From positions 3,906,001 through 3,970,000 of the forward strand of contig OZ024940.1 of assembly GCA_964017235.1 (NCBI GenBank): a stretch of DNA of 64,000 bases. The letters run 5' to 3'. The notes beneath the pieces are model-generated. The model worked only from the letters and a program-made list of their open reading frames with translations, searched no databases and was not told the DNA's origin. This document shows, one piece after another, positions 2,588-64,000 of the stretch. A program made the position numbers and the translations under genes. Origin of the DNA: Sabellastarte sp. h YS-2021. Lineage: Eukaryota > Annelida > Polychaeta > Sabellida > Sabellidae. Position 1 is the first letter of the stretch. Every line of letters begins with the position of its first letter.

Positions 2588-5343
2588 CCTTTGTAGTCGT
2601 ACTGGAGCCCGGCATGTGGGTGGTGGTGGCCGGAGCCTCGTTCTGGTCGTTGCACAGACTGGAGCTGCTGCAAATGCTCGCACACTCCCTCTCGTAGTCG
2701 TCCTCGGTGCATCCCTCCATCCTCTCGCCGCAGCCTCTCCTCAGGTGAAGGATTTCTCCATTGACTACAACAGACAGGTGTGGTTACATTGGATACTGTG
2801 TTAGGCAAACTTCATCAGTCGATTTTCCTTATTTTTTTAAGAAGAAGGGTAAACATTCCGTATAAAATGAGAAAAATATTGATTCTGATCAAAGTTTGCA
2901 GATAACAGAAAAACTACTTTTGAAAAGAAAACCTTCTCGCAGTAATTTTACATGAAAAGGGGAAAAAATAGTTAAATCACCCCTGCTTTCATTTGCTGTG
3001 TGTTCTAATTGGTAAATTAAAGCACTCTAACTGGTGATATTTGCTGAAATACACCCAACTACCATAGATCATACACGTATACTCGGAATTTTGGAACAAA
3101 AATCAAATACAGTTTCAGTTACATGTACACAAATTCAGCAAGATTGATCCACATTACACAGGTGTACCTGCTCATTTCACCATTACTAATCCCATTCTAA
3201 TTATGAGTCCCAGTTTTTCCCACAGATACAACCCTCTGGGCTTTTGTGCCACGACAGTGTTATTATCTTGAATGTCTCACCAGACGCCTGAGTATTTGGG
3301 GCAAAAAGAGCCAACTTAAGCCTGAGATTTGGCTTTGACCTTTGAGAGTTCACCCTTGGGCTATGTTTGTGAGAATCGTGTGGAGTTGGGAAGACATTCA
3401 ACCATTATGCAGGATGCTCCCAAAATTACTCGTAACATAATTTGCAGGAGCAATTCGCAAAAGTCACCGTTCATATTTTATTCCTTTTGGGGTTATGTCA
3501 TTTTACAAGGTTTGCACGTTTTGTAACTTATTCACAGGCTAATTCTTTACTGGTGTTTAACATATTATTCCTCTTTCTTTCAGGTTCCGTATCAAATTCT
3601 GTTGTCTTTTGGAGATTCTCTGATCCCTGAATGTATGCCAAATTATTAGTTAACATCAAGAGATCACCTTGGCAGTAGTTCCGATAACATTCCTTACAAT
3701 TAGTGATATTTCATCCCCCTTTCACACTGCAGGCTGTACATCCTGCGGTTAGAAGTTTTACTCAGAGGCGGAACCGTGCCCAGGTCACCCCATTTTGTCC
3801 GAGTTATTCACACTACAGGCAGATGGCCATTGATTGGACAGGGTTTTTTAACTGTCAGTAACAGTAGGATGACAGTACTACAAACGTTGGTCACCGAGAA
3901 GCAACCTCCATTAACCTTAACTCACCTTAGGTAGCCATCGGATGAACATGTGGCAAAACGACCAATACCTTAACTCACCTTATGTCGCCGTATTACCCCG
4001 AAAGACAACTGAATCACTACCTTATGTACACCGTGGACCACACCTTTGGTTACCGTAGTAAGAAATTCATATGCGCATGTGCAAAATCATGTGCGCATGC
4101 CCGTGGTACCGAAATCAGAGGGGGGAAATTTCATACATTTCGAAACTTACGAGGGATGCGTAAGGATTGGGACGGTTCGCCACTGACTCACAAGGTCGCA
4201 AACGGATGTCAGGCAGTGATCCAAGGACAGGGACATTTCACCAAATGCGGATTGCCGCAGGTGATAATGGTTGTAGTGTGAAAGGGGTATCAGGAACCTA
4301 CATGAAAAGGTTGTTTGGTGTTAACAGGAAGTTCCCAGGAACTGGTTCGAGAATGTCTGGGGACACAAAGTAATACAGAACAGCCCCTTAATGTCCCTGC
4401 AGCCATCAAACAAGAAACTAGGGGGCACTTGTAGAGTGCAGACCTCCACCAAAGCACCTTGCAAAAACTTGGGATAATTTTTTTGTATCCAGAATTTTTT
4501 ATCCAGATCTTTCCTAAAATGTTGTCTCTTCTTCTACCCACATGCAAAATTTTGAAATGATCTGTTCATTACTTTTGGAGGTATTTACAAACAGACAGAC
4601 AAGCTCACCCCAAAACATAACCTCCTGGTGGAGGTAATCAGACATGTACTCACAGACTGCAATCCTCTTTTCCACATGACAGATTTTGTACAGGTCACAC
4701 TTCACCTGGTTCTCCGTGCTGGTGATGTTTTGCGGGGACGTCACGCAGTTGTAGCCTTCCCTGCTGGGGTTATCATTGTACGCACAGGCATAGCACATGA
4801 ACTGGGCCTCCGTGGCTAAAATATAAGCAAGAGAGAAATAAATATTCAAAACCATTGATACCATAGGTTTTGTAAGAAACGTGAAGCTGGCCAGGCCATA
4901 TTTGGGTGAATTAAATAAAATGGTTGGATAACAGAGGTTAGGTCCTCCATGTGAGTTCAGCTCAAATTATATAAACCAACTCATAATGACCAGAACAGCA
5001 GTTTCATTTGTAAATATTTTAGAACTCCCCAAACAAGCTGTGACAAGGGGACATCCTAGAACCGCCATTATCCGACCTTCTGTCATCTCCAAATTCCGTT
5101 TTATGAACCAACTTCCACTCTCCGAAGTTTTATATTTTCCTTATTAAGTTCCTTATACTTAACCAACTCCTACATTTTATGACCCTTCTGTTATCCAAAA
5201 TACAATCTTATTTTTCAGTGTGGTCGGATAACGAAGGTTTTTACTGGCCATATATTGCAGTTAATTATCAGCTAACCAATTTACTCACCTCTCAGGCTTG
5301 CCAGGAGAACCACACAGATGTGCAATGTATGTATTATATCCAT
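2588..5343 (-). CDS. Ly6/uPAR (LU) domain cell-surface or secreted protein
   Basis: Three coding exons read right to left: 5343-5289, 4815-4654 and 2764-2588. Exon 1 begins at ATG 5343 and encodes an 18-residue signal peptide, MDIIHTLHICVVLLASLR, ending in phase 1 at a GTGAGT donor. Exon 2 (acceptor TTTTAG, donor GTGAGT) carries the LU start FMCYACAY and CVTSPQNIT with an N-glycosylation site, then KCDLYKIC. Exon 3 (acceptor TTGTAG, donor GTGAGG) carries RRGCGERMEGC, YERECASIC and the hallmark terminal Cys-Asn in SSLCNDQ, followed by a Thr/Ser-rich stretch (ATTTHMPGSSTTTK). All joins are phase 1, as in vertebrate Ly6/uPAR genes. Exon 3 also ends in phase 1, so at least one more exon is needed: either a GPI-signal exon not recognised here, or the LU exon at 675-502. 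Ligand and function are unknown. Confidence 0.8.
3716..4287. mobile_element. Non-autonomous TIR element, about 570 bp
   Basis: Bounded by inverted ends: CCCCTTTCACACTGCA at the left and its near complement TGTAGTGTGAAAGGGG at the right. No transposase frame is present. An internal block around 3990-4150 (GTGGACCACACCTT, AAGAAATTCAT) recurs inverted at about 43110-43300. It sits in the LU gene intron between exons 2 and 3. A target duplication is not clear. Confidence 0.65.
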
Positions 5344-9569: not shown

Positions 9570-12500
9570 ATGGCTGTTTATTCACCTACAGTTGATGATG
9601 AAGCATTAGCAAGAGCTTTACAGGTGAGATATACAGCTGTCTAGTCTTGTCAGGCATTTATGGTATTTTAATGTCTCTGAAAGCAGATATTAAGGTGTAA
9701 AAATTAAGTCTTGTACAGTATATTACTCTTGCTCAGTTTCAGAGCCTCTAAATGGCTGCATGTTGGCACAAAAATATTTACATAGTTTTCAAGGTCAGTA
9801 GAACAAAATTCATTGTTTCATAATAATAGCAAAAATTTTGCTTTATACTTTTTTTCACTGGCATCTGAAAAAACTTTAAAAATGTTTTCTTTCTATTTCT
9901 CTGAATAACTGTGTCTACACATCCTATTTGCATGTTCTTAAACATGATCTGCACTTGTTAAAATACATGAAACCCAGATTTTCATTGAACAGAATACAAA
10001 GATAAAATGAATTTTTATTGGTTCAGGCACAAAACGTACTACCTTGTCCAACGGTACAATCTCTATTACCTTGCCCAGGATAAAACCCCAGAACCTTCAC
10101 TCCAAAGTGCAGTCACAGAAACCATTTAGAATTTTCTGTATTTTAGTATGTAAGTAAGAAGCATTTATAAAGCACTGAAATTGATGTAACCATCGTCTGA
10201 GACGCTGATGTCCTAAAAGGGATAGTCCAGTTCAAGAAAGAGGTCAGTATCCATATTAGTATGTTTATGATATTTTTTGTATTTATTTATTCATTTTTTA
10301 ACCAGGAGCAAGAAGATGCTGAATGCCATAGTACAGATGAACATTTAGCCCAGAGACTGCAGGTAATGTACCTGGGTGAACCCTCCGTTAAATCTGTCGT
10401 CTTAAATTCAAGGAGCTGGATACAAAATTAGTAGCAGTTGAAAATGTTAGGGTATGTGAAAAGATGACCTGTGAAACAGGACATATATTATTGAAGGTAA
10501 ATTCACTGAAAGGGTCATGGAAATTCTCTCACACAATAGGGGATTTCTGATTGGGATTTTGTAGCTGCATAGCAATGTATTTTGTGGCAAGATCACTGTT
10601 TTAAGGTTGAGCGTTATTGAATATGATATGGTCATATAACTTTGTGTCACATAAATTATTTTAAACTGTAATATGTTAAACTTTAATGTATATATATATA
10701 TATATTGAAAGTCAGAACCATTGTTGACCAATACAGAAATATCAATATATTATCTTTGCATTCAGTCAAGTGTCTCAATCCAAAAAATAAACACATTTAC
10801 CCTCTCAACATGTAGGATAAATCTCGTCAAGAATTGCAGGAGGCAGATATGGTCGCGGCTGTTCGTCAGCAGAAACAAGAGGAGTGGGGCTTTCACAGTG
10901 TTCAGCGAGAGGACACAAAGTTTGCCATGTCGCTCTATAACGGGGAGGTGACAGGGAAGCTGCAGGTAGGGTCCAGTTTATTAACTTTATGTGCCATTTC
11001 AGCCGACAAATTAATAGAAAGTTCATCTTAGCATTGGACATTCACCAGATTGATTGTACGGGTCAAGGAGGGGGGAGGGGCGGGGGGTCTCAGTGGTGTA
11101 GCAGTTAGAGTGCTCACCTTCAACATCTGAGGTCGCCGGTTCGAATCCCAACCCCGGCACATCATGTTGGAAAGTTGTTACTTGCTGATGCCCGGTGGTT
11201 TACAGTGCAGAATCTTGACCAACTGGTATGCAATGGTTCCTCCACCCATAAAGTATCAGTCATCGTATGACCCTGGTTGTTGAATGTGACGTAAAACAAA
11301 ATAAATCTAAATCTACAGGACTACAGGTCAAAGCTGCAGTAGGCATCCCGTTCAAAAGTTGAGAATATATCGGGACAGGCTAGACATAAATGCAAACTGC
11401 AAAGAAAGAAACTCGAGTTAAACCACTATTATAAAGATGTATCCCCCCCATAGCTTCTTTATTAATCCTGTGCAACTTATCAATCATTGAAGTGCCAACT
11501 CGAGAGATGTGACCGATTCATTCGGTCACTGATTGCTTGTTAATCCTGTGTCTCCATGGTCCTGAGTGCTGACTCTTTTCCTCACTCCTGGATTTTGAAT
11601 GTATGAATTGGCACACTTGTCTGCTTTTGTTTACAGAAAAGGAGAACAATGGAGATTGAACACTATAAAATAATTCCAGTTTCAAAATCAGAAATGATAT
11701 TGTAAGATATTTAGAAATTAAAAAACGTAATTTTTAAGCTAGATAAATAAAAAAAAAAAAGTAAAAACTGTGCAATCACGAGTTCTACCCCTGTTGACCA
11801 GGGTTTTTTCTCACCACTATTTTGATATCAGATTTCAGACCTGTGGACATGGTTTCAAGGCTGCAGACCAAACGTCTTGATGAATTTTGAAAATCAAATG
11901 AGAAATGTTGTAGAGAAAAAAGACTTGAAGTTGTTCAGGTACATATACTCAGAGACCAGTGTAACAAACTACATTTTATCAATATTTTTTAGCCATCACT
12001 ATTTTCATAATCTGGTAGTTGTGTTGTTTTTTTAAGGATGAGATATGTGATGAAGAAATAGCCAAGCAATTACATGAGGCTGAACAGGAGTAAGTACAGT
12101 TAATGTATAAACATTTGTAAGGATCTTAACTGGCTAGAATATACTGAATTATAAAGACCAAAAGTGGCCAGGCAACCCAATTTGTGTACATTTATCTGAA
12201 GGGAAATAAATGGACAATCATTGATAATAGAAGAGAAAGTGATACAGACAAAATACTGTGTGATAAAAGGGTGTGAAAAAAATAATATTCATAATAGTAT
12301 TATGGACACCTAAAAGTAACCAGTCTTTATAATAGAAATAAAGTATTCAGGTTGGTACTTTATGACCTCTGTAAAAGAAGGAACTTTTGGCATAATGGAC
12401 TCTCACTACCATGCTCGTCCATTATCCACCCAAAGTCCAGCCATTTATAGAGCTGATAAAGCACTCGTCCTCAGACTTTACTTCTACAATAGGTCAGTGG

Positions 12501-15500
12501 TTACCAAAGATTTCTAGCAGACAATGTGAGTGATAATACAAGGTTTCTGTCCTTCTCCTTTTCAGCTTTATTTGAGATGCTATCTTTTGCCATACTGTGG
12601 TGTAAAATGTATAAAAATGTTTTAGCAAAGTACCTGTTTGTAGGTTTTTGGTAGCCTGTTTCCAGTTTGGTAGTCCCAGTTAACCTCAAACAGCAACTGC
12701 AATCATGTAAAATTTAATACATTTAGTCCTTCAAAAAAAAACCATGTTGATACTTTGTTTTCTTGTAATTTGTTTACCTTTCTGCAACATCCTATTAATT
12801 TGCTGAATTTCCAAGAACTGTTTTCTTTCCTTTCCTACAATGTACGCAAACATTTGTACTGCAAATAAACAGTTGACAGATATCTGATATTTGTATTTCA
12901 GCCAAAGGATATTGCAGATGCCTTCTGTAAAAGGCCCTCAGGGCATCTAGGTCTGCCCTGGAGCCATATTCTCTGATACTGCCCTCTCAAATCTGTTGTA
13001 CAAGTAGAAAATGTCTGTGTCACTTGAATTTCCATTTGAAATCCCATGTTTTATTTTTTGTGTAGAAATTCGGAGCAAACTACTTTTGTGGACATGGAAA
13101 TTGACCAATCAGACGCGGATATTCCCGACGGACAGGCAGACGAAGATTTTAAGTTCGCCTTAGAGGTCAATGATCGCGAAGTGGCCTGTCGGTTACAGGT
13201 AACAGAATCAACAGCATTTATGCAGGGTTAACTAGAGCTAAGTGTCATCTCAAATGAGAAGAAAAATGCTTCTAATTGTGCCATTATTCTCAGGTAACGA
13301 GGTCAGTTTAAATGGGAAAGGAAGTGACATAGTAGAACCTTAATTATTGGACAATCTATCATGGACCTCATGACTCCAAATATTTCATGCTATGTTAAAC
13401 CCACAGCAACAGTCTATTTAGGTTACTATTATAGTCCATAGACGGCCATTTAAATATTTTGACCTAGTTACAAGATTGATAATGAAAGTATTTCAAATGA
13501 TTCCATACTTCAGAGTTCACATTGTTCTATGTATCAAATAAAAAAATGTCCTTGTATAATTTTTATAAAATTCTTCAGCTGCTCAGACTGTGAGGCTCCG
13601 ATTTTGCTTTACAAAAAAAATCTTTCCTAGTCATTGTTATTCTTTCAGGTGGAGCTGGACAAAAAGGTGGCCGAAGCTTTAGCCAAGGAAGACCAATCTA
13701 CTGTAAATTCAGGGGACATGGGTCGCAACCCAGAAACCCAACCCATTCCAGATTTTGGGTACGTTTATTGGATTTCATCTCAATCATGGGGTGGTGCAAA
13801 GACACTCACTTGACACCCTTAAGGTTGTGGATATAAATGGATCATTTGCACGTGGTGGTTCAGTGGGAAACACCCTCACTTCTCAGCTCAAGGGTTCTGG
13901 GTTCACATCTAGGCCTGGACGATAACCGGTCAAACTACAGCTAATGAAGTGTAGGAAAATGTAGTAAAATTGAGAATTTTTAAATGTTATTATTGTTTAT
14001 TTTACATAAATTATATTTTAAAGATTTTAAAATCTCCATTTGGTTTTCAGAAGGGAAGTGGCTTTCCAGCCACCAAAACCACCTTTGGGTTGGGCCTTCC
14101 ACCAACGTAATGATGCCCACCGTGGAAACCCTAGAGCAAGACCAAACAACCGACCAAGAAATCGCCGAAATGAGGTAAATGTAACTTTAAAACCCCCAGG
14201 TAGATGGATAAAAGCCCAGTTTGACAAAATTCCTACACCAAACAGTTCCTAAACCTTGTGTACACCTTTCAAAAGGCTTTTTTGGCAGATATGAGCTTCA
14301 ACGCTAATTATGCAGAAATAAATGTTCTGGATACTAATGCGGAAGCAATTAGCATAAGTTGGTCACCGGATAGCTGCTTGTTTTAACTGATCAGTAAATA
14401 TTTCCAATGCAATGTTTTTTTTTTTGTAAAAAGAAAATATAAAAGATATAAATAAATAAGTAAATGAATAAATGAATAAAAAAAATATATTTCCAATGAA
14501 AAATTTTTGGAGAGAGAAATCGTAGACTGGGAACCAGACTGCAGGAAATACAGAAAACATCACATGCACGGTTACCCAGGATGTAAACAAACAATGCGGC
14601 AACTCCTAAGGTACTGAAAATTCATGTAAATTGTCAGGTAATTTGCAAATAAAAGTTATATTTTATACTTTTTAAATAAAAAAATATAGCGATAAAATGC
14701 TTCAATTTGATACACTTTAAGGTTTTAAGTCAAAACATTACATATCTAATGATCGTATGACCTATACTGAAACATGAAAACTGTTAACCGAGCCAACAAT
14801 ATCGGTGTTGACTAGTGCTTTGATAACCTTATATTCAGTTACCTCAGTTAATTGTTTCAGCCTTATCAGATACTACAGCTGCAAACTTATTTCCACGCCA
14901 TGCCCCCCCCCCCACCCACCCCCCACCCCCCCACCCACCCACCCAAAAACAAAAAAACACAAAAAAAATGTGTGTTTTTGTTTTTTTTACTTCAGGCTCG
15001 TGGAGGCCCCAGCAGGGAACAGGGTGACGGTGCAATAGAAATTCCTGACCCCGATGATTATGAGGTACACCCCCTCTTTTGTTATTATCTCCCCACCCCT
15101 GAGGGAGTAAATAGATGTGCAATTAATGACAGTAGATTTGAAGTTAGTCATGTTTTGTTGTCAGTTATGATATCAGACTGTGAAGCACTTGAAATCAATG
15201 GGGTGATTTTTTTTTTTTTTTTTTTTTTTTTTTAGGAAAGGAATTGATGAGAATCAGATTATATCAAAATAAAAATGTCCAGTATTCTCTAATTCTCCGT
15301 TTTCTCAGCTTTCTAGTAGTAAAGTCATTTGTTAAAATCTCTTCTATTTCTTGGAGGCTGTCAAACAAATAAAATCCAGTATTGTAATTTCCTGTCATAA
15401 GTTTGCGGAAATGTAGCCGGCCCCCATGCATCAACCACAAGTTAACATTGGAAAGTTTTCTTAAAATAAATTCAGGAAAATGAACTCCTTGTCTGCACCA

Positions 15501-17125
15501 TATATAGTCAGAATTTCAGGTATTTAACCAAACATGTTTAGGTTGCAGTTTTGATGGAATATTAGCCATGTAAAGAGGTAAATATGATGTTTTCGAGAGT
15601 CCATTCTTGACAATGTAAAGTGGGTTTCCACTTGTTTAAACTACAAACCAATCTAGAAGTCGTGTACCCGTATTGCATTTGGAACACTTCATCTGTATTT
15701 AACAGGCCAACTGGGAGCTGGCGGAGCGTTTAGGCGAGGTCAAGGACAGAAGCCTGCCCAAGGAGCAACAAGACGCCCTTCCAACCTGCAACTACACAGG
15801 TTAGAGGCTTGCCTAATACTTCTATATCGGCTAACAGAAGTCTATGTTATATTGTCATGTGGTCTAATGTCATTGATGTCCGCAAATGCATCATCAATCC
15901 AAAAATAAAACGCATACGGGGGTGGGGGTTCAGACAGAGGTTCAAGGATGACCATTTATCAACATCCTTGAGGTTCTTTAACCTGTCACTGGAGATAGGA
16001 CCCAATGACAGAGGACCGCCATTTTAAGTGGGCGTCTGAGCCACTATGTACCTACCTGATTGAACCCACGTTCTCTGTGTTCCTAGGAGAGTGTGTTACC
16101 CACCAGGCCACAGTGGCAGATGTACGAGACTGCTGAACTATTCACGTTTTTCTTCTTACCTTTCAGGAGGTGCTGCCAATAGTTCGGAGGAGGACAAAGC
16201 ATGCAAGATCTGCCTGGGCGAGTTTGAAGCGGGCGACAAGTTGAAGATACTTCCGTGTACTCACAAATACCACGACACCTGCATAGAAAATTGGTTTAAA
16301 GTGAGTTACAATGAAATATATATATTTACCTTCCCTCAAACTTGCTGTTGATATTCACTATGTTCTCCAGCATACCATATCAGGGGGCCATAAATTTATT
16401 TATTCAGTGTACCTTCTAGAACTTGATTCTGGGCAATTTTTATTTCGTTGGCCACAAGACCCGGGCTTTTGTTGAAGTCCACAGCTATAAGGAATATTTA
16501 GACTTTTTAAAACAAATAATGACAAATTTAATGCAATATCTGTGTAGGAAACAGGTAGCAGTAGTATTTCAGCTGTTAATGGATTTTAAGGCTAAGCCAA
16601 GAATTCGCCAGAGTGAAGATTTTTCCATTGATAAATGTGTTTTATTTAATGCTGGTTGAAAAATTGTTCGTCTGTTCCCCAGAGCCGTTAAAAGTGAGGT
16701 ATCCCCACCCAAAGTGTGAAAACGTCAACACTTTATCACAGTTTTCTCATTTGCTATTGGAGGGATTTCTCTCTTATCTTGTTTTTATCTTGCTAACATA
16801 CAAACAGAATGCAGTGATCACATAACTTCCTTAATGAACTGTACAATGAATCATTATTATAAACATAGAGGGCAAATAGGACACTGAAAGTCTAAAAATC
16901 ACCCCCCACGACCCTCCTGTACATTGAAAAAAAATAGAAATTTGTGTACTGTAATAAGCTATATGTAATTTTGGGTTTATGTTTTCTTTTGTACACATTA
17001 GAGTCGGCCGGCTGAGAGGATAAGCTTGTCTTAATTTCATTTAATTTTTGTTATTGTATTTTTAGACCAACTGCACTTGTCCCATTTGTAAGCTGGATGT
17101 GAAAGAAGAGCTCTCGAAAGCCTGA
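9570..17125 (+). CDS. RING-H2 E3 ubiquitin ligase with repeated A-x-x-L-Q motifs
   Basis: Coding exons: 9570-9623, 10306-10362, 10816-10965, 12037-12089, 13066-13198, 13649-13758, 14051-14174, 14996-15064, 15706-15799, 16167-16300 and 17066-17125 (TGA). They join in frame to about 345 residues. The C-terminal RING-H2 is complete: C294, C297, C312, H314, H317, C320, C331, C334, with W324 and the CPIC end. It should bind E2 enzymes and transfer ubiquitin. The N-terminal half repeats acidic A-x-x-L motifs like ubiquitin-binding MIU helices: DDEALARALQ (9-18), TDEHLAQRLQ (28-37), CDEEIAKQLH (91-100), NDREVACRLQ (140-149), KVAEALA (155-161) and ANWELAERLG (251-260). Four exons end exactly at L-Q before the donor. 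A Pro/Arg/Asn-rich basic segment spans 187-227. There are no membrane segments, so it is probably cytosolic or nuclear. I cannot assign an orthologue, and the ubiquitin-binding role is inference. Confidence 0.88.
11082..11314 (+). mobile_element. tRNA-derived SINE (family A variant)
   Basis: Carries an A-box-like head (CAGTGGTGTAGCAGTTAGAG) and a B box (GGTTCGAATCC), then a body ending GTGACGTAAAACAAAATAAATCTAAATC. The body matches the copy at 51106-51309 (opposite strand) and more weakly the main family A copies. It lies in intron 4 of the RING gene. Confidence 0.82.
13850..13935 (+). mobile_element. Fragment of a tRNA-derived SINE head
   Basis: CACGTGGTGGTTCAGTGGGA followed by GGTTCTGGGTTCACATC resembles the A- and B-box spacing of the family A head. 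No body follows. It lies in a RING gene intron. Confidence 0.4.
14903..14943. repeat. C/A simple repeat
   Basis: CCCACC-type low-complexity tract just upstream of RING gene coding exon 8. Open frames here are artefacts of composition. Confidence 0.85.
15930..16123 (-). mobile_element. tRNA-derived SINE, family B
   Basis: On the minus strand the head reads GTGGCCTGGTGGGTAACACA followed by a B-box-like GTGGGTTCAATC. The body then carries GGCTCAGACGCCCACTTAAA and ends GATAAATGGTCATCCTTGA. It is the most complete family B copy here and lies in the intron before the RING exon. Confidence 0.75.
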
Positions 17126-19323: not shown

Positions 19324-19983
19324 GGGCCTGGATTCACGAAAGGTCGTAAGTCTCAAATTTGATATTTTTGTCGCAAATCAAAGATTTGCTCAGATTGGAG
19401 ACCATTTGCTCAGCTGGGATTCACAAAAGATCTCAGGCTGAGATTTGGCCCAGATGTTGATCTCGAATCTTAGACTGCCTAGGGAGTGACTTAAGTTTTC
19501 ATAAAATAGAGTATATGTAGTTACAAGTCTCAAAACAAAATGAAAATTGCCAAGTATGACATATTTATAACTTTTATCACAAAAAACATGAATATATACT
19601 AAGAGTTTGTTTGAAAACAACAGTAAAACATTTACATTAGTAATTTACATGAATGGTTTGTTTTGCTGGTTTAATCAGTTATTTTGTATGCCAGTAAAAA
19701 TAGTAAAATGAAAACATTTTACTTGATAGAATATATTGTAAAATGTGAGTACATGTGTTACAACTGTAAATACAAATGTGTATGCTTCACACTAATCTCA
19801 ACAGAATGTTACATCGATTTTGATTGGTCCAGACTCAAAACATGTCTGACATTTTGGTCTCAGCTAAGATCCCTTTTGTGAATCTCAACTTTAACAGAAT
19901 CTCAGCTGAGACTAAAATCTCAGATTTGAGCAAAATCTCAGCTGAGATTTGGCGAAGACTTGAGACCTTTTGTGAATCCAGCC
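19324..19983. mobile_element. Foldback element, about 660 bp
   Basis: The ends are inverted: GGGCCTGGATTCACGAAAGG at the left and the complement of GGGCTGGATTCACAAAAGG at the right. The flanking interior is a degenerate run of CTCAGCTGAGATTTG-like steps, complementary between the two halves. The AT-rich centre has no transposase. It belongs to the same family as 21282-21999 and others. Confidence 0.8.
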
Positions 19984-20761
19984 CTTGGGTTTGATTACTC
20001 ATCAAACTTGAAGTGGGAAATTGGCTGTTTTCTGGTCCCCCATATTTTTATTGCAGAATATTTACTGTTGTACACTACCTTCCTCCATACAACTTGACAT
20101 AACATTGGCATATACCAATAGAATGTGGGCAGAGTTATTCTGTCAATTCATCCTCTTTAATATTTGTTAATAGTAGCATCCGATTGACCTGGGTTGAACC
20201 CATGGCTACAGACCTAGGTGACCAACTTGTCAAACCAGTTAAACACTATGGCTCATTGTGTGTTGAAAAACTTTGTCCCTGGAATGTAAGTTTTTCTTTA
20301 TTCTGTCAAAAAAAAAAGTCCTTGTCCTCTGCCTCACGGACCATTAAAAAAAGAAATCTTTGTCCTCTGCCTCACGGACCATAAAATCTGTATACCAGTA
20401 TAAATTGGTTCTTACCTCTTACAATACATTTATTCTTTTACACTTTAGATGAGATGATTCCTTTTGAATGTGAAAAGTTTTATGGATCCCTTCTCATCAT
20501 TACTTTACATTCCACAGGGAGATAATTGGAGTTACATAAGATGAAATTGTCTAATATGTTGTTATACAAGTTTAATTTTTTGTGTGATTCACCACACTAT
20601 TCTCATGCAAAACTGTTCCCTTCCAAAAGTGCCATCCATAAAAACCAAATAAGGGTTTTCACCGGGTACCTGACACAATCTCGCTTTAGCATCCACCTAA
20701 ATTCCGGTATTGAGTAGATTTTTGCTAAGACGTAGGCCTACACTCTCTGGAGGAAATCAAA

Positions 20762-23700
20762 ATGACCAATTCTTCAACTGCAGAAATTTTTTCAGCTTTT
20801 CAAAGCTACATTGACAAAGAACAGGACATCAGAGAAGTATGCTCAATTCTTAACGCTTTGCAGATCGTTCTGAAAACGCCAAACGCTATATTCTTGTATT
20901 ATCGCCCAGTAGGTATTCAATGAATGTTCTCCCGTATTGTGTTGTATTTTTTGCTTCTAAATAATTAAACTAAACGGTAGTTAGGTGGGTGTTAGCTGGA
21001 ATCTATCAAAATAAGAGCTATCAGGTCCTGGATTAGTGTTGCCTCCCCTGCCAATCGCAATAAGCATAAAAGTAGGAACTTTACCTGTCCTTTTTTCCTC
21101 GCCCGTATCCATGTCCGTTATTGCCCCTATCTGTGATACCCTAGATCATTTTGTATAAAACAGTGTGCTCACCTGATGAAACTTTTTCAGAAGTTAGCTA
21201 TTTTGTAATTTAATCTACTGAAAGTACTGAAGGAAATTCTAATTGTAACTCAGGGCCCGTATTCACGAAAGGTCTTAGCCAGGGGCCGGTTTCATGAAAG
21301 GACTTAAGTTTGGTCTCAGGCTCAAATCTGAGACTTTGGGCTCAAATATTGTAAATATTTTGCTGAGTCTGTGGACTCAGATTCAAAGCATTTCACAAAC
21401 AGGCTCAACTTGAGATTTGGCTCAGTCATGGGCTCAATTTTGAGCCCACCAAGGAGGTGTCTCAAATTTTGAGTCCAAAGTTTGTCATCCAATACTTGTG
21501 TATAAAGCAATATAATTTGCATGAAAATGAATTTGTTGAATCTTGAAATATTATATTTTTATCTTGCTTACTAATTACAACTACATATTCAATATTCATA
21601 ATAAGAAAAGTCAATGGAATTGACATGCTTTTTGATGTTGTCAAGTGACTAGTCTCAAGAGTGGACTCAAAGCTTAACTCAGTCTCAGTTGAGTCTCAAA
21701 CAATTGGCTTGGTTACCAATAATATTATATCAATTTTTTTTCATGTGTTATCAGTGTTAATGCAATCTAAATCGATAATGATGATGAAATAAATGCACTT
21801 GCATAAAAAACAAACCAAGGAAGCATCTTAAATGAAATTTAAAAGTTGAGACTATGACTTGAGACCAGTCTCAGCTGATCCACCTTTTGTGAAATCCATT
21901 TGAGCCAAAAACTCAGCCGAGACAAAAGTCTCAGATTTGAGACCCAGACTCAGATCTCAAAACTGATCTCAAACTGAGACTTTTCATGAAACCGGCCCCA
22001 GGGCTTAGGCTTAAAGTTGAGACTTTTGTCTCAAGTTTCTGCCCCAAAACTGCTAAGACTTTTGTCTTAGGCTTAGTGGTATTCACAAAGAATTTAAGAC
22101 CAGTCTTAGGCTTTGCCAAGGGCTCAACTTTAAGACTGGTTGGTAGTGGGCTTAAATTTGTAAAGAGGACTTATATATGGCCGCCATAAACTTTTCTCCA
22201 CTTCAAAATTTGAAAGGGCTGTAAATAAAGTTTAATTATATAGAACACCTCACTAAAGCAGTCTTTGGAAGTTTATATGTGGTAACAAGGTTTTCCATTT
22301 CAAAACAGTACTTTTCCTTAGATAACATGCATTAAATGAAGGATATATGGCACCAATAGTATAGTTTGAATAGAAAAGATAGGTCACATGACACAGAAAA
22401 CCACTGTGGTTATTTGATAATCTTGGACTTAGCTAAGTCACCCCTTGTGAATACGGTTTCAAGACAAAACTTAGCTGAGACAAAAGTCTTAACTTTAAGA
22501 CTGGATGTAAGCCTAAGACCTGGCTAAGTCTAAGACCTTTCGTGAATACCGGCCCAGAAGTCCAGTAATAATTTATTAATTGAATGATCCCAGTTTTGTA
22601 AATTGTATGTCTCATGTTTAAACATACACTGGTAAACAGAAAAGGTTTATGAATAAAGCTATCCACAAAAGATGTAATCCCCAGTTTGTTTGAGGATGAG
22701 ACCTAACTCAGTACACAGACAAAAGAGCCTAATCCACTTTGATATTGGGACAGTGACACAGGTATAATAACTGTCACGTAAAACAGGTATATTACCCTAG
22801 TAGAGGCAGATCTAGGGGTGGTGGATTGGAGGGGGCATGGACAGGGGGTGGAAAGGGTGGGGGTGGTGCGCCCTCCACGCCCCTCCCTAGATCTGCCTCT
22901 GTTTTAAACTTAAATTTGTGTGATTGAAAGATTTAAACTTGTGTTGGTCACGTGTCTGAGATGAATTATTGGGTCAGAGTTGAGGCTTTTTTTATCAGGA
23001 CATCCGCACTGCCACCAGAGATCTGGAACAAACAGCCCGGGAGATTCTGACAGTGATTCAAGGCATTCACCAGCCTGATGGGGTGAAACAATGTGAGTGC
23101 ATGACAAAGATTGTTATGTGGGTTTTTAGATGGAATTTTAACATTCATAGCAACAGTATCTTGGCTGTGCATGTGCATCAGTATTGAAATATTCTATGCT
23201 GTAAAATGCACCTTATATTGAATCAGCTATTGATTGCTCAATTTTGGAGATAAACTTAAATTAGTTTTCAGGTTATTTAAGCTAATCATAAATCTTAGAC
23301 AACCTGGCTGTGAATCCAGTTACATTTAGTGAAATATCAAAGAACAAATAGTTTAATCTACATGAGCATCGATAATTTACTTTAAAGGAAAGGTAAATCA
23401 ATACAATATTTTAATAAATAATGTGTTGCCATTTAATTGAAATTATTTTGAAATTGACACTTTTAGTGTTGACATTGAAGTTCAGTAAAATATATTGATT
23501 GTATTTTAATAAGAATATGATCCCTTTTCTGATATATATTGTGATTCCCCATCTAGATCCACATACACTAGTGGTTAAATTTGAATTGAATCTGTGGTAT
23601 TATGAAAGGCTCAACATAGATGCATATATTACCCCATTTTTACTTCTTTCTCATTCAGAGTTGGTATTGGTTTTAATTTTCCAAAGTTGGCTGGTTTTTC

Positions 23701-46709: not shown

Positions 46710-49700
46710 ATGTCGGAGACACCAAAGTACAAGGACTTGATCCTGCTGTCGGAGATCTACTCCCACATTCTGTACGGAGCTCCGGGAAAAGCCTGCGGGG
46801 GCGGCTGTTCACGGAAGTGCGAGTGGAAGGATTCCGGGTTCGGATCTGCCTACCGTAAGTGTCACGAGGGGATCAGTTTAAAATTGTTTGAAATCTATCT
46901 GGTCATAGATTTGAAGTCTCAAGACTTCTTCTTAGTCTTAGGCCTATATAAAGTAAGGTCCTCTGTCTTTTTGTTATCCGACCCACGCTGTATGTGACCT
47001 GTATAGAGGGATATATTGACTGGGATATATGTTTTGTTTACAACGGTTGCTCTGTACCATGGATAATTAGTGTCAATAATTTTCGTTTTTTTGCAGATAT
47101 CTCAGAAACTATGTAATGTACAAGTATTTATTATATATAATTAGAAAGGTCTTTTTACAGCGCTTCTGCTGGTTTTTGTTGCATAAAAATCCATGCAGAA
47201 ATGGCTGAGAAATTGCAAGTTAAAGACTGAGATTTTTATATTTGCTGGTGCCCATGTTTTTTAACAGCCCTTTTCCACTTTCTCTCTTTAAATATTGATT
47301 TATTTGACTCATAAATTACACAAAATGGTGGATAATAAATGTAAAACATCCCTGCTTGTTTATGTATATGTCATTCGGGAAGTTTTCCTATTTTAACATT
47401 TTCACAAATGAAATTTATAAAAGGGTGAAGCCCTATTTTGTAATATGGTCGGTTTGTGACTTAACTCTAATTCTGCTGCGTGAAGGGAACATACACCTTT
47501 GGAAGCATTATTTTGCTAAAAGTCTGGAAGTCTATTGTCAGACTTCAATTGTGAAAACTTTTGCCTTGGGTTTGTATTTTTGGCTCAGACAATGCTGGAG
47601 TATTTAGAGTGTTCCAGTGTTTGTTGTGGCTAAGAATTCACAAGTACAGAGATTAAATCTCAATCTCAAATCGGAGTTTGAGATCTCAGGTAAATTTTGT
47701 GATCAAAGCCTTACTCAACTGAGACTAGTCTGAGCCAAAAGCCTTCACTATTAAAGTACTTAAATCCTGTCAATTTAGTTTGTTTTTAACACACCTACTT
47801 TGGAGTCAAGATGGTTTACAAATATAAAAATAATAAAAATGATTGACACCAAAATTACTTTTCCTTTATAACCTTGAAGAAAAGATTACTGGTTGAGACT
47901 GAATAATTGACAGGAAAAGAAATTTTGTGCTCAAAACTCGAGACTCCACTTTGGTAGTCTGAAATTTGAACTCACGGCTCGGCCAAACCTCAAGTTGAGT
48001 TTCTTTGTGAATCACCCAAAGTGTTAAGTACTCGGGCCAAATATCCCAAAGTTTAGTCTTAGCCCAGGCTTAAGCCCTAATTTCATGAAATCGGTCCCAG
48101 GAATTATCATTCATTAACTGTTGTTAGTCATGGATATTGTAAAAAAAGAAGGATTAAACTGCCCCCAGGGGTTCAACCGGTGCAAGAAAAAAGCCCCCCC
48201 CAACCCCCCATGCATAGTCATCCTTGCTCATATTGGACCCTAGATTTTTGTGACATTGATGTGTCATGTGACTAATGCATGAAGTCTATGTTTCCAGAAA
48301 GGCACTATGTAACCTTCTGTTTATGATTTTTATTATTTCTAAATACACAAAGTTTAGGTGTGATTTTTTTTCAGTTACATTAAATTGCAAATTCCTGTCG
48401 TATGGTAACCAGAAATCGGATGTTTAAATACATTTTTTTTCTGCTCTGGGAAGGGAAAAAAATCACTATCATTAAAGGCCTGTATACATGAACAATGACA
48501 CAGAAGGACGTGAGTTCGAACCCAGGTACAGGTGGACACACAGTGATTCAGATAACCACTTAAAATGGTGATCCTTCCCTCTCGGTCACACCCACAATCC
48601 TGGATTACTGACCTTGATTAGATCCTCTGTCATTGGGTCCTGTCCTCAGTGGCAGGCTAAAGAACCTCAGGGGTGTTGATAAGTGGTCATCCTTGAGCCT
48701 TTGTCTTTCGGTCAGGGGAGTGTCAGTAGAGACAGCTGTATTTATGCCTTCTGTGTTCACAGTTACAGTGGAGTTAAGGGTCTGATCTGTGTTCACAGTT
48801 ACAGTGGAGTTAAGGGTCTGATCTGTGTTCACAGTTACAGTGGAGTTAAGGGTCTGATCTGTGTTCACAGTTACAGTAGAGTTAAGGGTCTGATCTGTGT
48901 TCACAGTTACAGTAGAGTTAAGGGTCTGATCTGTGTGAAACTTTTTTATGCCTGACCGAAACAAGAAGTGATTAGATTTTGGGAAAGATCCGGATAATAT
49001 TATGGATACCCCAAAAAATCCTGAATTTTCTAAAAGACCGCCCTGGTGGGGGTTTGTGCCCTACAAGTGATTTACAGTCATTACTGCAATAAAACTTGAC
49101 TCCAGTCTATTACTTTCCTGTTACTTTCTTTACTTTGTGGGGGGCAGAGTGGTAATGTTCACTGCCGTTTTGACCCCCAAGCCATTTAAAACGGCGGGGC
49201 CCCTGCCGTTTATATTCACTAGGTTTAAATAAGGGTTCTAAATGGCTGAGCCATTTAAAACGGCGGGCTCCAGCTGTCGGCCATTTTAACTCTTTTTCTA
49301 GCTATTACTTTGTTAATTATTGAGTTATTGTTTGTCTTCTGTGGGATACAAGTTTAATGTTTCATGACAATTATTTAATTTTTTTTCTTTCCATTGTTTG
49401 TCATTTAAGCGTAAAATTTAAAAAGTGAAATATTAAATAGCAGCAATATAATTATATAAATAAGGGCTGCTGACATCACTAGATATCACAGAGTTGTGAG
49501 TTGAAGCCTGAGGCAACAGGAACTTACTATAGGGTTACTGTAATCTTGGCCTATTACTAGAAATTGCTTGATATATGCACAATTACTGTGGCCAGCTTCC
49601 GGTGATAAAAGTCTGATTGTATTAAGAGTTTGTTGCTGGAAATTCCTAATGATACAGGAAAAAAAACGAAAAAATTTGTAGTTTTTGTCTGTTAATTGTA

Positions 49701-55700: not shown

Positions 55701-58700
55701 TAAACCTAGCATTTTAAATTAAAAAATATCCAAAAAAAAAAAAACATTATATGCAAGGCTGGCATCTTTATGAGTGGGTGTTGGGAAAACTTAAAAATAT
55801 TGAAAGAAACCCAACGACTCTGAAATTATAAAGTTTTATGATAGTTTTATCCTGTAATTTTCCAGATTTTATTTTTAACTTCCATGAGGATTTTGATGAG
55901 CATTTTTTTCTTCATAAATCCATCTCCTATAATTTGGCCACTTCAGTACTGGAACACAATCCTTTCAGTTATAATCCCAGCATCAGAACAGTTATACACT
56001 GGCTTGATACTGTTGTAAGAGAGATTGCTCTGACTGAATTTCAGATCACCAACAAGCCGCCGTTTTACGGGCGGGAGTACCACGGCGCCATCTCACGCGA
56101 AGACACCGACTTTCTGCTGACAATCGGTGGCGAGGGTAGCTACCTTATCAGAGAGAGCCAGCGAGCCCCTGGACAGTACACTCTGGCTATCCGGTGAGAT
56201 CAATAACGTAAAGTGACTGGGGGGGTGGGGAATATTTGGTACCCATCTGTAGGGTGATTAGGTTTATTTATATACTTGAAAATTTGCTGATTTTTGTGCA
56301 ATGCAAAACTAGTTAAAACCTATAATTTAAAGTCTAGTTTGTGCCCTCACGGCCTCGCTGTTAAACAGGACAGAAAACCCTAACCTTGCCTTAAGAGGCT
56401 TCACTGACTGAATGGTACTAGATATGATTAGACGTCTGCTGTGAAATTGATATGTGGGAACCCCCCCCCCCCTCCCCCCAACTTTACACATTGCAGACAT
56501 TTTGGGCTTATGTTGTATCTCATTTCAGGCTAGCATTGTTCAGTACAGATTGTTGAATACAACGTAAAACCCCTAACTTTGACCATTGACTTCTGTGTTT
56601 CCCTACAGGTTTGACGGCACCACCAAGAACTTTAAGCTGTACTACGATGGCCAGCACTACGTGGGTGAGAAGCGTTTTGACACGGTGCAGGACCTGGTGG
56701 CGGACGGACTCATCACCTTTTACCTGGAGAGCAAGGCTGCTGACTATATCGCCCAGCTCTCAAACCAATCCAACTACGCCGAGTCTCCGTATGTGGCTTA
56801 CAACACACTCAAGAAGAAGCAGCTGGCTGCCCCACGCACGGGCACCCGGTCCAAGCACAGGCACCACCACCATCACCACCACAAAACAGGGGAGAAGCAG
56901 GGTGAGGGGGAGGCTGGAGGTCAAGGTCACAACAACAGGGCTGAGAGAAGTGAGAGGTCACCCAGTGCAGGTGCCGACGGCAACCGTGTCTCAAAGAAGA
57001 CGTCGGCAAACATCCCTGTGGAGAGCCGAGTGTCGCAGATCCTGGAGAACCGGCAGGACGCCAATTTGAACATTAGCGTGTCAAAAGAAGGGGCTGCCCA
57101 AACATCGGGTCAGGTTGGAGGTAATGTTGCTGCTGTGGCACCTGGAAAGGTCGGGAATGTGGAGGCAACACAGTCATCCCAGCCTGTGGCCGAAGGGAAC
57201 AGAGCCGTCCACTCGAAAGCCCCGGAATCCACTTCAAAGGAGCACCACGACTACGCCAACCAAACCCAGATCAACCTCCACCGCCAGTCTCACTTAGAGG
57301 CTCAGGTAAGTGGCAATTTGCAGAGATTGACAGTTCTCATCCCAGTAAATAATCTTTGTGAATATTAGTGTTAAAGATGGGAAACCAGAACATTAGTTTT
57401 ATTTCTGGTTGTGAAATTGAATCACACAGATGTCAATATGGTACAACTTCCGATGGCCTGTTCAGTGCTTTAAAACTTCTACAGTTTAACCTGATATTTT
57501 ATCGAAACAGCTAAATATCAGTACATGTAGTTGAAAATCTTGCATTATGACTTGATATGGAGTGAAAAGAAAGTCGATTAACTTTATAATATCTTTCAAA
57601 TATCTTTCCTTTGTTAAATAATGGCTCCTGTGCACCTGCTTTAACATTTGCAGTAGGGCTACGAACGGTTACTCGAGCTTACTCGGATGAGTCGGATTTT
57701 GTTAGTACTCGAGTCCATTTTAACTACTTCATTACTCATAGCGTATATTGTATTATCACCCACGAAATGAACTGTTTGTGTAAAATATGCTACATTTCTG
57801 CATTTTTGCCACATAATATCAATAAAAGCTGTGGGTTTGGCTTAAAAACGTATAATTTGTTTCATATTCTTTAATACCTTGTTAACTAGAAGACATTTTT
57901 CTTCAAAAGTTTTGTTACCATTTGTTTATGAAAGACTTCTGATGGTAGGTGCTAAATCTTGTGATTACTTGAATTCGGGTCAGTTGTCAGAGTGCAGGTA
58001 CTCGGGGCTGTTTTTGTGCACCCGTCCCAGCCCTAATTTTCAGTGATAAGCAGATGAAAGACTCTGTTTCATTCATTTTAAAGCCTTAGAAAAACTAGTG
58101 AGAAGAATCTGAAGTTTTGTGATGCAGTAGATAAGCACTAAACCTGGCATTCTTATATCAAACCAAGGGGGGCCCACAGTGGCAGAATTGCAACACTCTC
58201 GCCTCCCACCTATGAGATTGGAGTTCGAATCCCGGCCCAACCTCAAGTGGGAAAGTTGGTAGTTGCTTACTGTTGGTCGGCAGTTTACAGTACAGAACCT
58301 TGGCCAACTGTATGTACTGGTTTCCTCTTCCCATAAAACTATTCGCCGTGATCTGACCAGTACAGTGTTGAAAGCAACGTTATTTTGTAAAACAAGATGG
58401 TCACTCGTAGTTTGTGCTTCTAGTTATAAAGACCATAGTTTATCTACAGTGAAATTCCTTTAAAATAGAACTCTGCTTAATTGAATTTCCATTGAAGTGG
58501 ATGTAAATATATATGTTACAGTCAATCTGTGAAACCAGTCATTACACATTTACTGATATACACCTATTTCAATGTTTTATGGATTTAAATTGTGATTTGT
58601 TGTAAATAAAATGTTCTGGTCTATGTATATTCTTTATCTATCTTAATTCAGCCATTACGTGTAATGACTGGACCTTATTTCCAGTCACTACGCGAAATGA

Positions 58701-63594: not shown

Positions 63595-64000
63595 AAGTGG
63601 TGTATAACAAGAACAACCAATATCCATAGGATTTGGTTCTAGTTAATAGTAGTTATGGCTGACTGCCAATTTATACAGTAGACTCTGTATAACTAGAACC
63701 TCCAATATCCACAGGATTTGGTTCTAGTTATGGCTAAATTCCACTATGTACAGTGGACTCTGTATAACTAGAACCTCCAATATCCACAGGATTTGGTTCT
63801 AGTTATGGCTAACTTCCACTATATGCAGTAGACTCTGTATAACTAGAACCTCCGATATCCACAGGATTTGGTTCTAGTTATGGCTAACTTCCACTGTATA
63901 CAGTAGATTCTGTATAACTACAACCTCCAATATCCACAGGATTTGGTTCTAGTTATGGCTAACTTCCACTATGTACAGTACATTCTGTATAACTAGAACC
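63595..64000. repeat. 75-bp satellite or minisatellite reaching the window end, about five units
   Basis: Each unit has CTCTGTATAACTAGAACCTC, AATATCCACAGGATTTGG, TTCTAGTTATGGCTAACTTC and CACTATGTACAGTAGA. TAACTAGAACC and GGTTCTAGTTA within a unit are inverted copies, so each unit can fold as a hairpin. The first unit is diverged and the last is cut by the window. Confidence 0.93.

Follow-up and report, generated by a model that had tools for sequence, protein, structure and literature searches.

Can a single polypeptide read the ubiquitin mark and also write it? The question is raised by a gene in a window of 64,000 nucleotides from the fan worm Sabellastarte sp. h YS-2021 (assembly GCA_964017235.1, contig OZ024940.1; C21:3906001-3970000 within the 1.79-Gb assembly), in which the original prediction had described a RING ubiquitin ligase carrying several motifs that resemble MIUs (motifs interacting with ubiquitin). 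We read the gene product as an RNF38/RNF44-class ligase with a multivalent array of up to seven MIU-type cores that are predicted to bind ubiquitin, a reading that we favor with some reserve on the evidence of the sequence. Relatives of the gene were sought within the worm's own genome.

Gene structure and the YEELL/RING-H2 module

The gene is well supported by its sequence. Eleven coding exons on the forward strand (9570-17125; Table 1), joined in frame by script, encode a product of 345 residues; each of the 10 introns begins with GT and ends with AG, and the reading phase is continuous across all of them. A splice acceptor lies 2 bases upstream of the ATG in exon 1, implying that a further upstream exon is likely. 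The RING itself is readily recognized, with residues 293-335 matching Pfam zf-RING_2 at an expectation value (E) of 2.3e-13 and the nearest solved chains being those of RNF38 (1.4e-14) and RLIM (2.7e-14). The zinc ligands are spaced C-2-C-14-C-1-H-2-H-2-C-10-C-2-C over residues 294-334, the canonical RING-H2 arrangement. The ligase assignment of the original prediction thus stands; the range that it gave, ending at 15799, stops short of the RING (16202-17089).

The defining feature of the CTL class of RING-H2 ligases (RNF38, RNF44, RNF111, RNF165 and BIG BROTHER) is a YEELL motif of 21 residues ahead of the RING, and a figure legend of the same source places a splice junction across this motif in all aligned Arabidopsis thaliana and human sequences (PMC5764321). 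Residues 245-265 of the worm protein fit this consensus at 10 of its 13 specified positions, departing from it with D for S/T/N, N for L/M and W for L/T/I; a fit of 10 anywhere in the protein was reached by 1 of 3,000 whole-protein shuffles. The junction between exons 8 and 9 falls inside the motif, directly after Y-E, and the same phase-0 junction is present in an RNF38-like gene on C6 and in a paralogue on C8 (N-Y-E/A-L-L and D-Y-E/G-L-L), for both of which the upstream YEELL exon was chosen by sequence among several candidates ending in Y-E or F-E before a GT. A phase-0 donor within the RING likewise has the same position in both; compared with them, the window gene has one more intron, in phase 1, separating YEELL from the RING. 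The C6 exon matches solved RNF38 at 5.5e-26, with RNF13 as the next family at 6.8e-11. Over the YEELL-RING module, identity to the window gene is 38/79 for the C8 paralogue, 29/79 for the C6 gene, 30/68 for an open reading frame (ORF) on C11 and 17/65 for an ORF that we take to be RNF126/115-like. The C11 frame is a long single ORF of 543 residues (L020) with YELLLRLDERVKPKT ahead of its RING, and apparently encodes another YEELL-like ligase.

The gene is best read as encoding a single-subunit RING-H2 E3 ligase of the YEELL/CTL class (RNF38/44, RNF111/165, BIG BROTHER). It shares with RNF38 and RNF44 the RING-H2 type and spacing, the upstream YEELL motif, the splice junction within that motif and the position of the RING near the C terminus, and it differs from them in its N-terminal array of MIU-like cores. 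Residues 251-260, which had been counted as one of the ubiquitin-binding motifs, carry Asn at the Asp position. They lie within the YEELL motif and are cut off from its first part by the junction common to the two paralogues, and are therefore best interpreted as a YEELL segment and not as an MIU by descent. A phmmer search with the residues around 251-260 returned no matches.

Repeated MIU-like cores and the exons that carry them

In an MIU helix, an N-terminal Asp bonds to Ala46 and Gly47 of ubiquitin, and a central Ala enters the pocket formed by Leu8, Ile44 and Val70 (PMC6910952). We defined a strict core as D-x-x-h-A-x-x-h, where h is hydrophobic and the Asp stands at Ala-4. Seven such cores occur in residues 1-186, centered on Ala14, 33, 74, 96, 136, 145 and 157. 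All seven have the Asp at Ala-4 and hydrophobic residues at Ala-1 and Ala+3, and an eighth h-A-x-x-h, at Ala256 in the YEELL motif, carries Asn instead of Asp. Shuffles of residues 1-186 contain on average 0.09 cores and at most 2, with none of 20,000 reaching seven. Across the whole window, stop-to-stop stretches of 18 or more amino acids in all six frames hold 13 matches in 87,362 residues, 7 of which are in these exons. The cores at Ala14, 33, 96 and 157 appear strongest, and those at Ala74, 136 and 145 weaker and doubtful.

This set overlaps the seven motifs first listed without coinciding with them. Motifs 9-18, 28-37, 91-100, 140-149 and 155-161 fit D-x-x-h-A-x-x-h, the last with its Asp, at residue 153, just outside the listed range. 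In contrast to these five and like the YEELL segment discussed above, motif 79-87 does not fit, having Gly in place of the required Ala, and it consequently resembles an inactivated MIU. Two cores that had gone unlisted (70-77 and 132-139) lie in the very exon ends that had been aligned with each other. The comparison with known MIUs is apt in that the invariant Asp and the Ala are the residues reported as important in RNF168 (D175/D446 and A179/A450). D175A and D446A changes are reported to leave no detectable binding (PMC5766498), the double change A179G/A450G markedly reduces it (PMC2699339), and L415A/A416G in MINDY-1, which carries tandem MIUs, lowers the amount of polyubiquitin captured (PMC4942677).

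The array appears to have been multiplied, at least in part, by duplication of exons together with their introns. The proposed likeness between the closing residues of exon 3 and those of exon 5, EDTKFAMSLYNGEVTGKLQ and EDFKFALEVNDREVACRLQ, is confirmed at 9 of 19 identical residues. Among all 11,175 ungapped pairings of 19-residue segments within residues 1-186 it ranks first, and a score as high came up in 1 of 500 shuffles. Local alignment of exons 3-4 with exons 5-6 gives a score of 58, attained by none of 5,000 shuffles (maximum 56), and the 3' borders have phases 0 and then 2 in both pairs. The 5' border phases differ, and exons 4 and 6 alone are not significantly similar (869 of 5,000 shuffles as high). 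Internal exon duplication is thereby supported for the 3-4/5-6 pair.

That the exons ending at 9623, 10362, 10965 and 13198 close with L-Q exactly at a phase-0 donor also proved correct. Four of the five L-Q pairs in the protein stand at such donors (P = 4e-4 if any xAG codon is allowed, 0.007 for CAG only), a pattern that reflects in part the CAG/gt donor consensus. These four introns directly follow an L-Q that closes a core or a degenerate core. Cutting right after the L-Q instead of flanking a module, they fit exons copied together with their introns.

No second array was recovered in the genome. A search with the full protein gave 28 matches with E no higher than 1, among which all those starting before residue 245 are the gene's own exons and those elsewhere are confined to the YEELL-RING region (residues 246-341). 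Residues 1-167 gave six matches to E 10, all in the window gene; such an exon-by-exon search detects short exons poorly and could miss distant copies of the array. In the DNA upstream of the YEELL-RING exon on C8 (29.3 kb) and C6 (29.6 kb), we counted 3 and 2 copies of the strict motif, and 2 and 0 places with a looser motif combined with splice signals. None of these places was judged to be like the array exons, which is weak evidence of absence given that in the window gene itself the looser scan picks up no more than three motif places. To our knowledge, no other RING ligase has so many MIU cores, and among the open-licence papers listed in literature searches none describes, in its title or the opening of its abstract, a CTL-class RING joined to an MIU array.

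Ubiquitin binding and its alternatives

If the cores work as MIUs, each would form a helix that weakly grips the Ile44 patch of ubiquitin, and through avidity several of them together could retain a polyubiquitin chain, or a target carrying several ubiquitins. Some 130 residues towards the C terminus, beyond a basic linker, the RING would load an E2 and add further ubiquitin there, making the protein a reader-writer that acts on already-marked targets, as RNF168 does. RNF168 likewise combines a RING with MIU motifs of the same Asp-Ala core spacing. It differs in having two MIUs (171-188 and around 446-450) and not seven, in its UMI and LRM modules and in the N-terminal position of its RING. 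A bolder extension, possible and yet on balance doubtful, is that repeated exon duplication grew a seven-module ubiquitin-reading array with which a single-chain enzyme gauges the length or density of chains before extending them.

Profile searches give weak matches to solved MIUs. A six-core profile, built without the YEELL motif and without the Ala136 row, which the aligner had misplaced, ranked the MIU of MINDY-1 first among 177,635 distinct sequences of the Protein Data Bank (PDB), with a weak E of 0.38. UIMs (ubiquitin-interacting motifs) are an inverted form of the MIU, and a reversed version of a first, seven-row profile (which included the residues around 251-260 and omitted the Ala145 core) matched no MIU and, weakly, the RAP80 UIM at E 5.3. 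The MIUs of MINDY-1, the best match in the structural library, and of Rabex-5 share with the worm cores a short D-x-x-L-A-x-x-L-Q-type sequence. The two proteins differ from the window gene product in function, MINDY-1 being a deubiquitinase and Rabex-5 a Rab5 exchange factor, and each has fewer motifs. Rabex-5 was considered as further support and rejected: it was matched only by the seven-row profile that included the YEELL row (among the top five of nine matches, together with MINDY-1) and is absent from the profiles without that row, which shares W-E-L-A-E-R-L with it. The YEELL row is the probable cause of the Rabex-5 matches, with the proviso that other rows of the profiles differ too. 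A profile confined to the end of exon 3 and that of exon 5 found no PDB matches, phmmer with residues 1-186 turned up just two calcineurin B-like chains, both weak (E 0.22 and 0.25), and NCBIfam gave chance matches only. By Chou-Fasman values, the eight cores average 1.06 to 1.26 for helix, compared with 1.05 for all windows, which is suggestive only.

Several observations weigh against ubiquitin binding. Most of the matches right after MINDY-1 in the six-core search are designed coiled coils, and with the four strongest cores only, MINDY-1 falls to 7th of the 18 listed matches (E 1.6). The Rabex-5 matches vanish from profiles that lack the YEELL row, and the suggested check against UIM models came out negative, Pfam UIM being unlisted to E 10 in a scan that filters out most matches beyond about 0.1. 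AlphaFold2 models of exons 3 and 5, each modeled singly from a single sequence and both of low confidence, disagree: exon 3 forms helices at 3-28 and 30-41 over the Ala74 core (predicted local distance difference test score, pLDDT, 68), whereas exon 5 forms a beta hairpin over the Ala136 and Ala145 cores (pLDDT 65). The helicity of the cores is accordingly uncertain, and these three are the doubtful ones. The N terminus of CCDC50 carries four similarly shaped motifs. We regard as the strongest contrary evidence a report that an N-terminal fragment of this protein showed no detectable association with ubiquitin on co-precipitation from cells; its authors propose a role in oligomerization for the fragment (PMC13059773).

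The main rival to ubiquitin binding is accordingly a structural one, in which the N-terminal repeats form a coiled coil or helix bundle that oligomerizes the ligase, its RINGs perhaps acting as pairs, with ubiquitin binding absent or incidental. The reported behavior of the CCDC50 fragment speaks for such a role, as do the designed coiled coils among the profile matches, for example CC-Hex2 with E-I-A-K-S-L-K-E. CCDC50 (also known as Ymer) is not known to carry a RING; its human N-terminal sequence scores 162 bits against Pfam CCDC50_N and contains four D-x-x-h-A-x-x-h-Q motifs. The worm protein gives a weak, collinear match to CCDC50_N over residues 8-107 (14.7 bits, E 0.036 with residues 1-109 alone; 10.1 bits, E 0.97 with the full protein), and the family was matched by none of six residue shuffles and by one of three exon-order permutations (three of the four permutations were scanned). 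Local alignment to residues 1-130 of CCDC50 scores 86, a value as high in 1 of 1,000 shuffles. However, 10.1-14.7 bits is below the family cut-off of 27 bits, and residue shuffles reach as much as 17.3 bits with other families. Nor are the Ala-Ala distances between successive cores (19, 41, 22, 40, 9 and 12) in any case a multiple of seven, and a coiled coil has no inherent need of an invariant Asp at Ala-4. The genome moreover has a separate CCDC50-like gene on C3, whose intron is placed differently relative to the first motif. This single place matched by CCDC50_N (C3:16900464-16900595; 21.3 bits, E 0.31, below the cut-off) looks by eye like the genome's own CCDC50; its upstream exon reads ...EDGVLANRIQDEE, with the intron after Q-D-E-E and not after L-Q. 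The window gene is thus probably not CCDC50, and we rejected it as a CCDC50 orthologue, the CCDC50-like exons lying near 16,900,464 on C3. Taking both sides together, we consider a purely structural role rather unlikely, if the most serious of the competing explanations.

Two further readings deserve less credence. The motifs could bind ubiquitin and act on the ligase itself, by drawing in ubiquitin-loaded E2 and causing self-monoubiquitylation that shuts off or retargets the enzyme, a form of control described for other ubiquitin-binding proteins. The same sequence evidence for MIU cores applies here, yet the sequence expresses no preference for self over targets and in our judgment the array is larger than such a use needs, making this explanation improbable. 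It is also conceivable that exons have been misjoined, with the RING gene and the motif exons belonging to separate transcripts, as the joins are read from genomic DNA. The 10 GT-AG introns in continuous phase argue against it, as does the DYE that ends exon 8 and is resumed as YEELL in exon 9 at a junction recurring in two paralogues. Moreover, the 7 of 13 window motif matches that fall in these exons are all on the forward strand, and we judge a misjoined model very improbable.

Should the array bind ubiquitin as we favor, the gene would encode a compact natural ligase that both recognizes ubiquitin and attaches it, possibly with a built-in count of binding sites. Removing the cores singly could then probe how chain length or density is sensed, and the gene also gives insight into how motifs of this kind may increase in number.

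Feature coordinates and other elements of the window and genome

Table 1. Coding exons, domain segments and MIU-like cores of the RING-H2 gene, in window coordinates
Feature	Position	Strand	Description
Coding exon 1	9570..9623	+	Residues 1-18; L-Q end, phase 0
Coding exon 2	10306..10362	+	Residues 19-37; L-Q end, phase 0
Coding exon 3	10816..10965	+	Residues 38-87; L-Q end, phase 0; last 19 residues like those of exon 5
Coding exon 4	12037..12089	+	Residues 88-105; phase 2 end
Coding exon 5	13066..13198	+	Residues 105-149; L-Q end, phase 0
Coding exon 6	13649..13758	+	Residues 150-186; phase 2 end, like exon 4
Coding exon 7	14051..14174	+	Residues 186-227; linker rich in proline, arginine and asparagine
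Coding exon 8	14996..15064	+	Residues 228-250; ends ...DYE, within YEELL motif
Coding exon 9	15706..15799	+	Residues 251-282; remainder of YEELL and pre-RING linker
Coding exon 10	16167..16300	+	Residues 282-326; bulk of RING-H2
Coding exon 11	17066..17125	+	Residues 327-345 and stop; final two zinc-binding Cys
YEELL motif, first part	15047..15064	+	Residues 245-250, upstream of splice junction
YEELL motif, second part	15706..15750	+	Residues 251-265; contains originally listed motif 251-260
RING-H2 finger, part 1	16202..16300	+	Residues 294-326
RING-H2 finger, part 2	17066..17089	+	Residues 327-334
MIU-like core 1	9597..9620	+	DEALARAL, Ala14
MIU-like core 2	10336..10359	+	DEHLAQRL, Ala33
MIU-like core 3	10912..10935	+	DTKFAMSL, Ala74; Asn-Gly two residues after; not originally listed
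MIU-like core 4	12049..12072	+	DEEIAKQL, Ala96
MIU-like core 5	13145..13168	+	DFKFALEV, Ala136; not originally listed
MIU-like core 6	13172..13195	+	DREVACRL, Ala145
MIU-like core 7	13658..13681	+	DKKVAEAL, Ala157

RING sequences also occur in this genome in repetitive form. Among the 149 RING matches listed, 59 have an open frame of 236 amino acids and are spread over many contigs, examples being L010:1396-2106 (C3:117772484-117775483) and L011. Two copies, taken together with their flanks, show 99.87% identity across 3,000 bases, and in one copy the RING is confirmed by Pfam; judging from the identity of these two, the frames look like a recently spread repeat that carries a RING gene.

Downstream of the RING gene, the first exons of a translin-like gene lie at 20763-20840 and 23000-23095 on the forward strand (Pfam Translin, E 0.003, below the cut-off, on 56 joined residues). 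Foldback elements at 19324-19984 and 21234-22574 have the look of insertions of the miniature inverted-repeat transposable element type. Their inverted ends are 86% (19325-19353/19956-19984) and 82% (21234-21278/22530-22574) complementary, and the second element holds a nested inverted pair (21279-21304/21977-22002, 88%). Of two forward-strand ORFs at 55832-56197 and 56583-57368, the first contains an SH2 domain (Pfam, 9.1e-9) and resembles chimaerin, and the second has no Pfam match to E 0.01. Two similar small Cys-rich ORFs on the reverse strand (464-769 and 4514-4966), reading CYFCQYDT...CVTAPQNITGETN and CYACAYND...CVTSPQNITSTEN, have no Pfam match to E 0.01 and are perhaps tandem secreted proteins of a three-finger-like type. 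Tandem arrays occur at 1132-2275 (20-bp-based unit, about 55 copies), at 48750-48936 (36-bp unit, 5.2 copies, 99%) and at 63650-64000, where a 75-bp unit in 4.7 copies reaches the end of the window.

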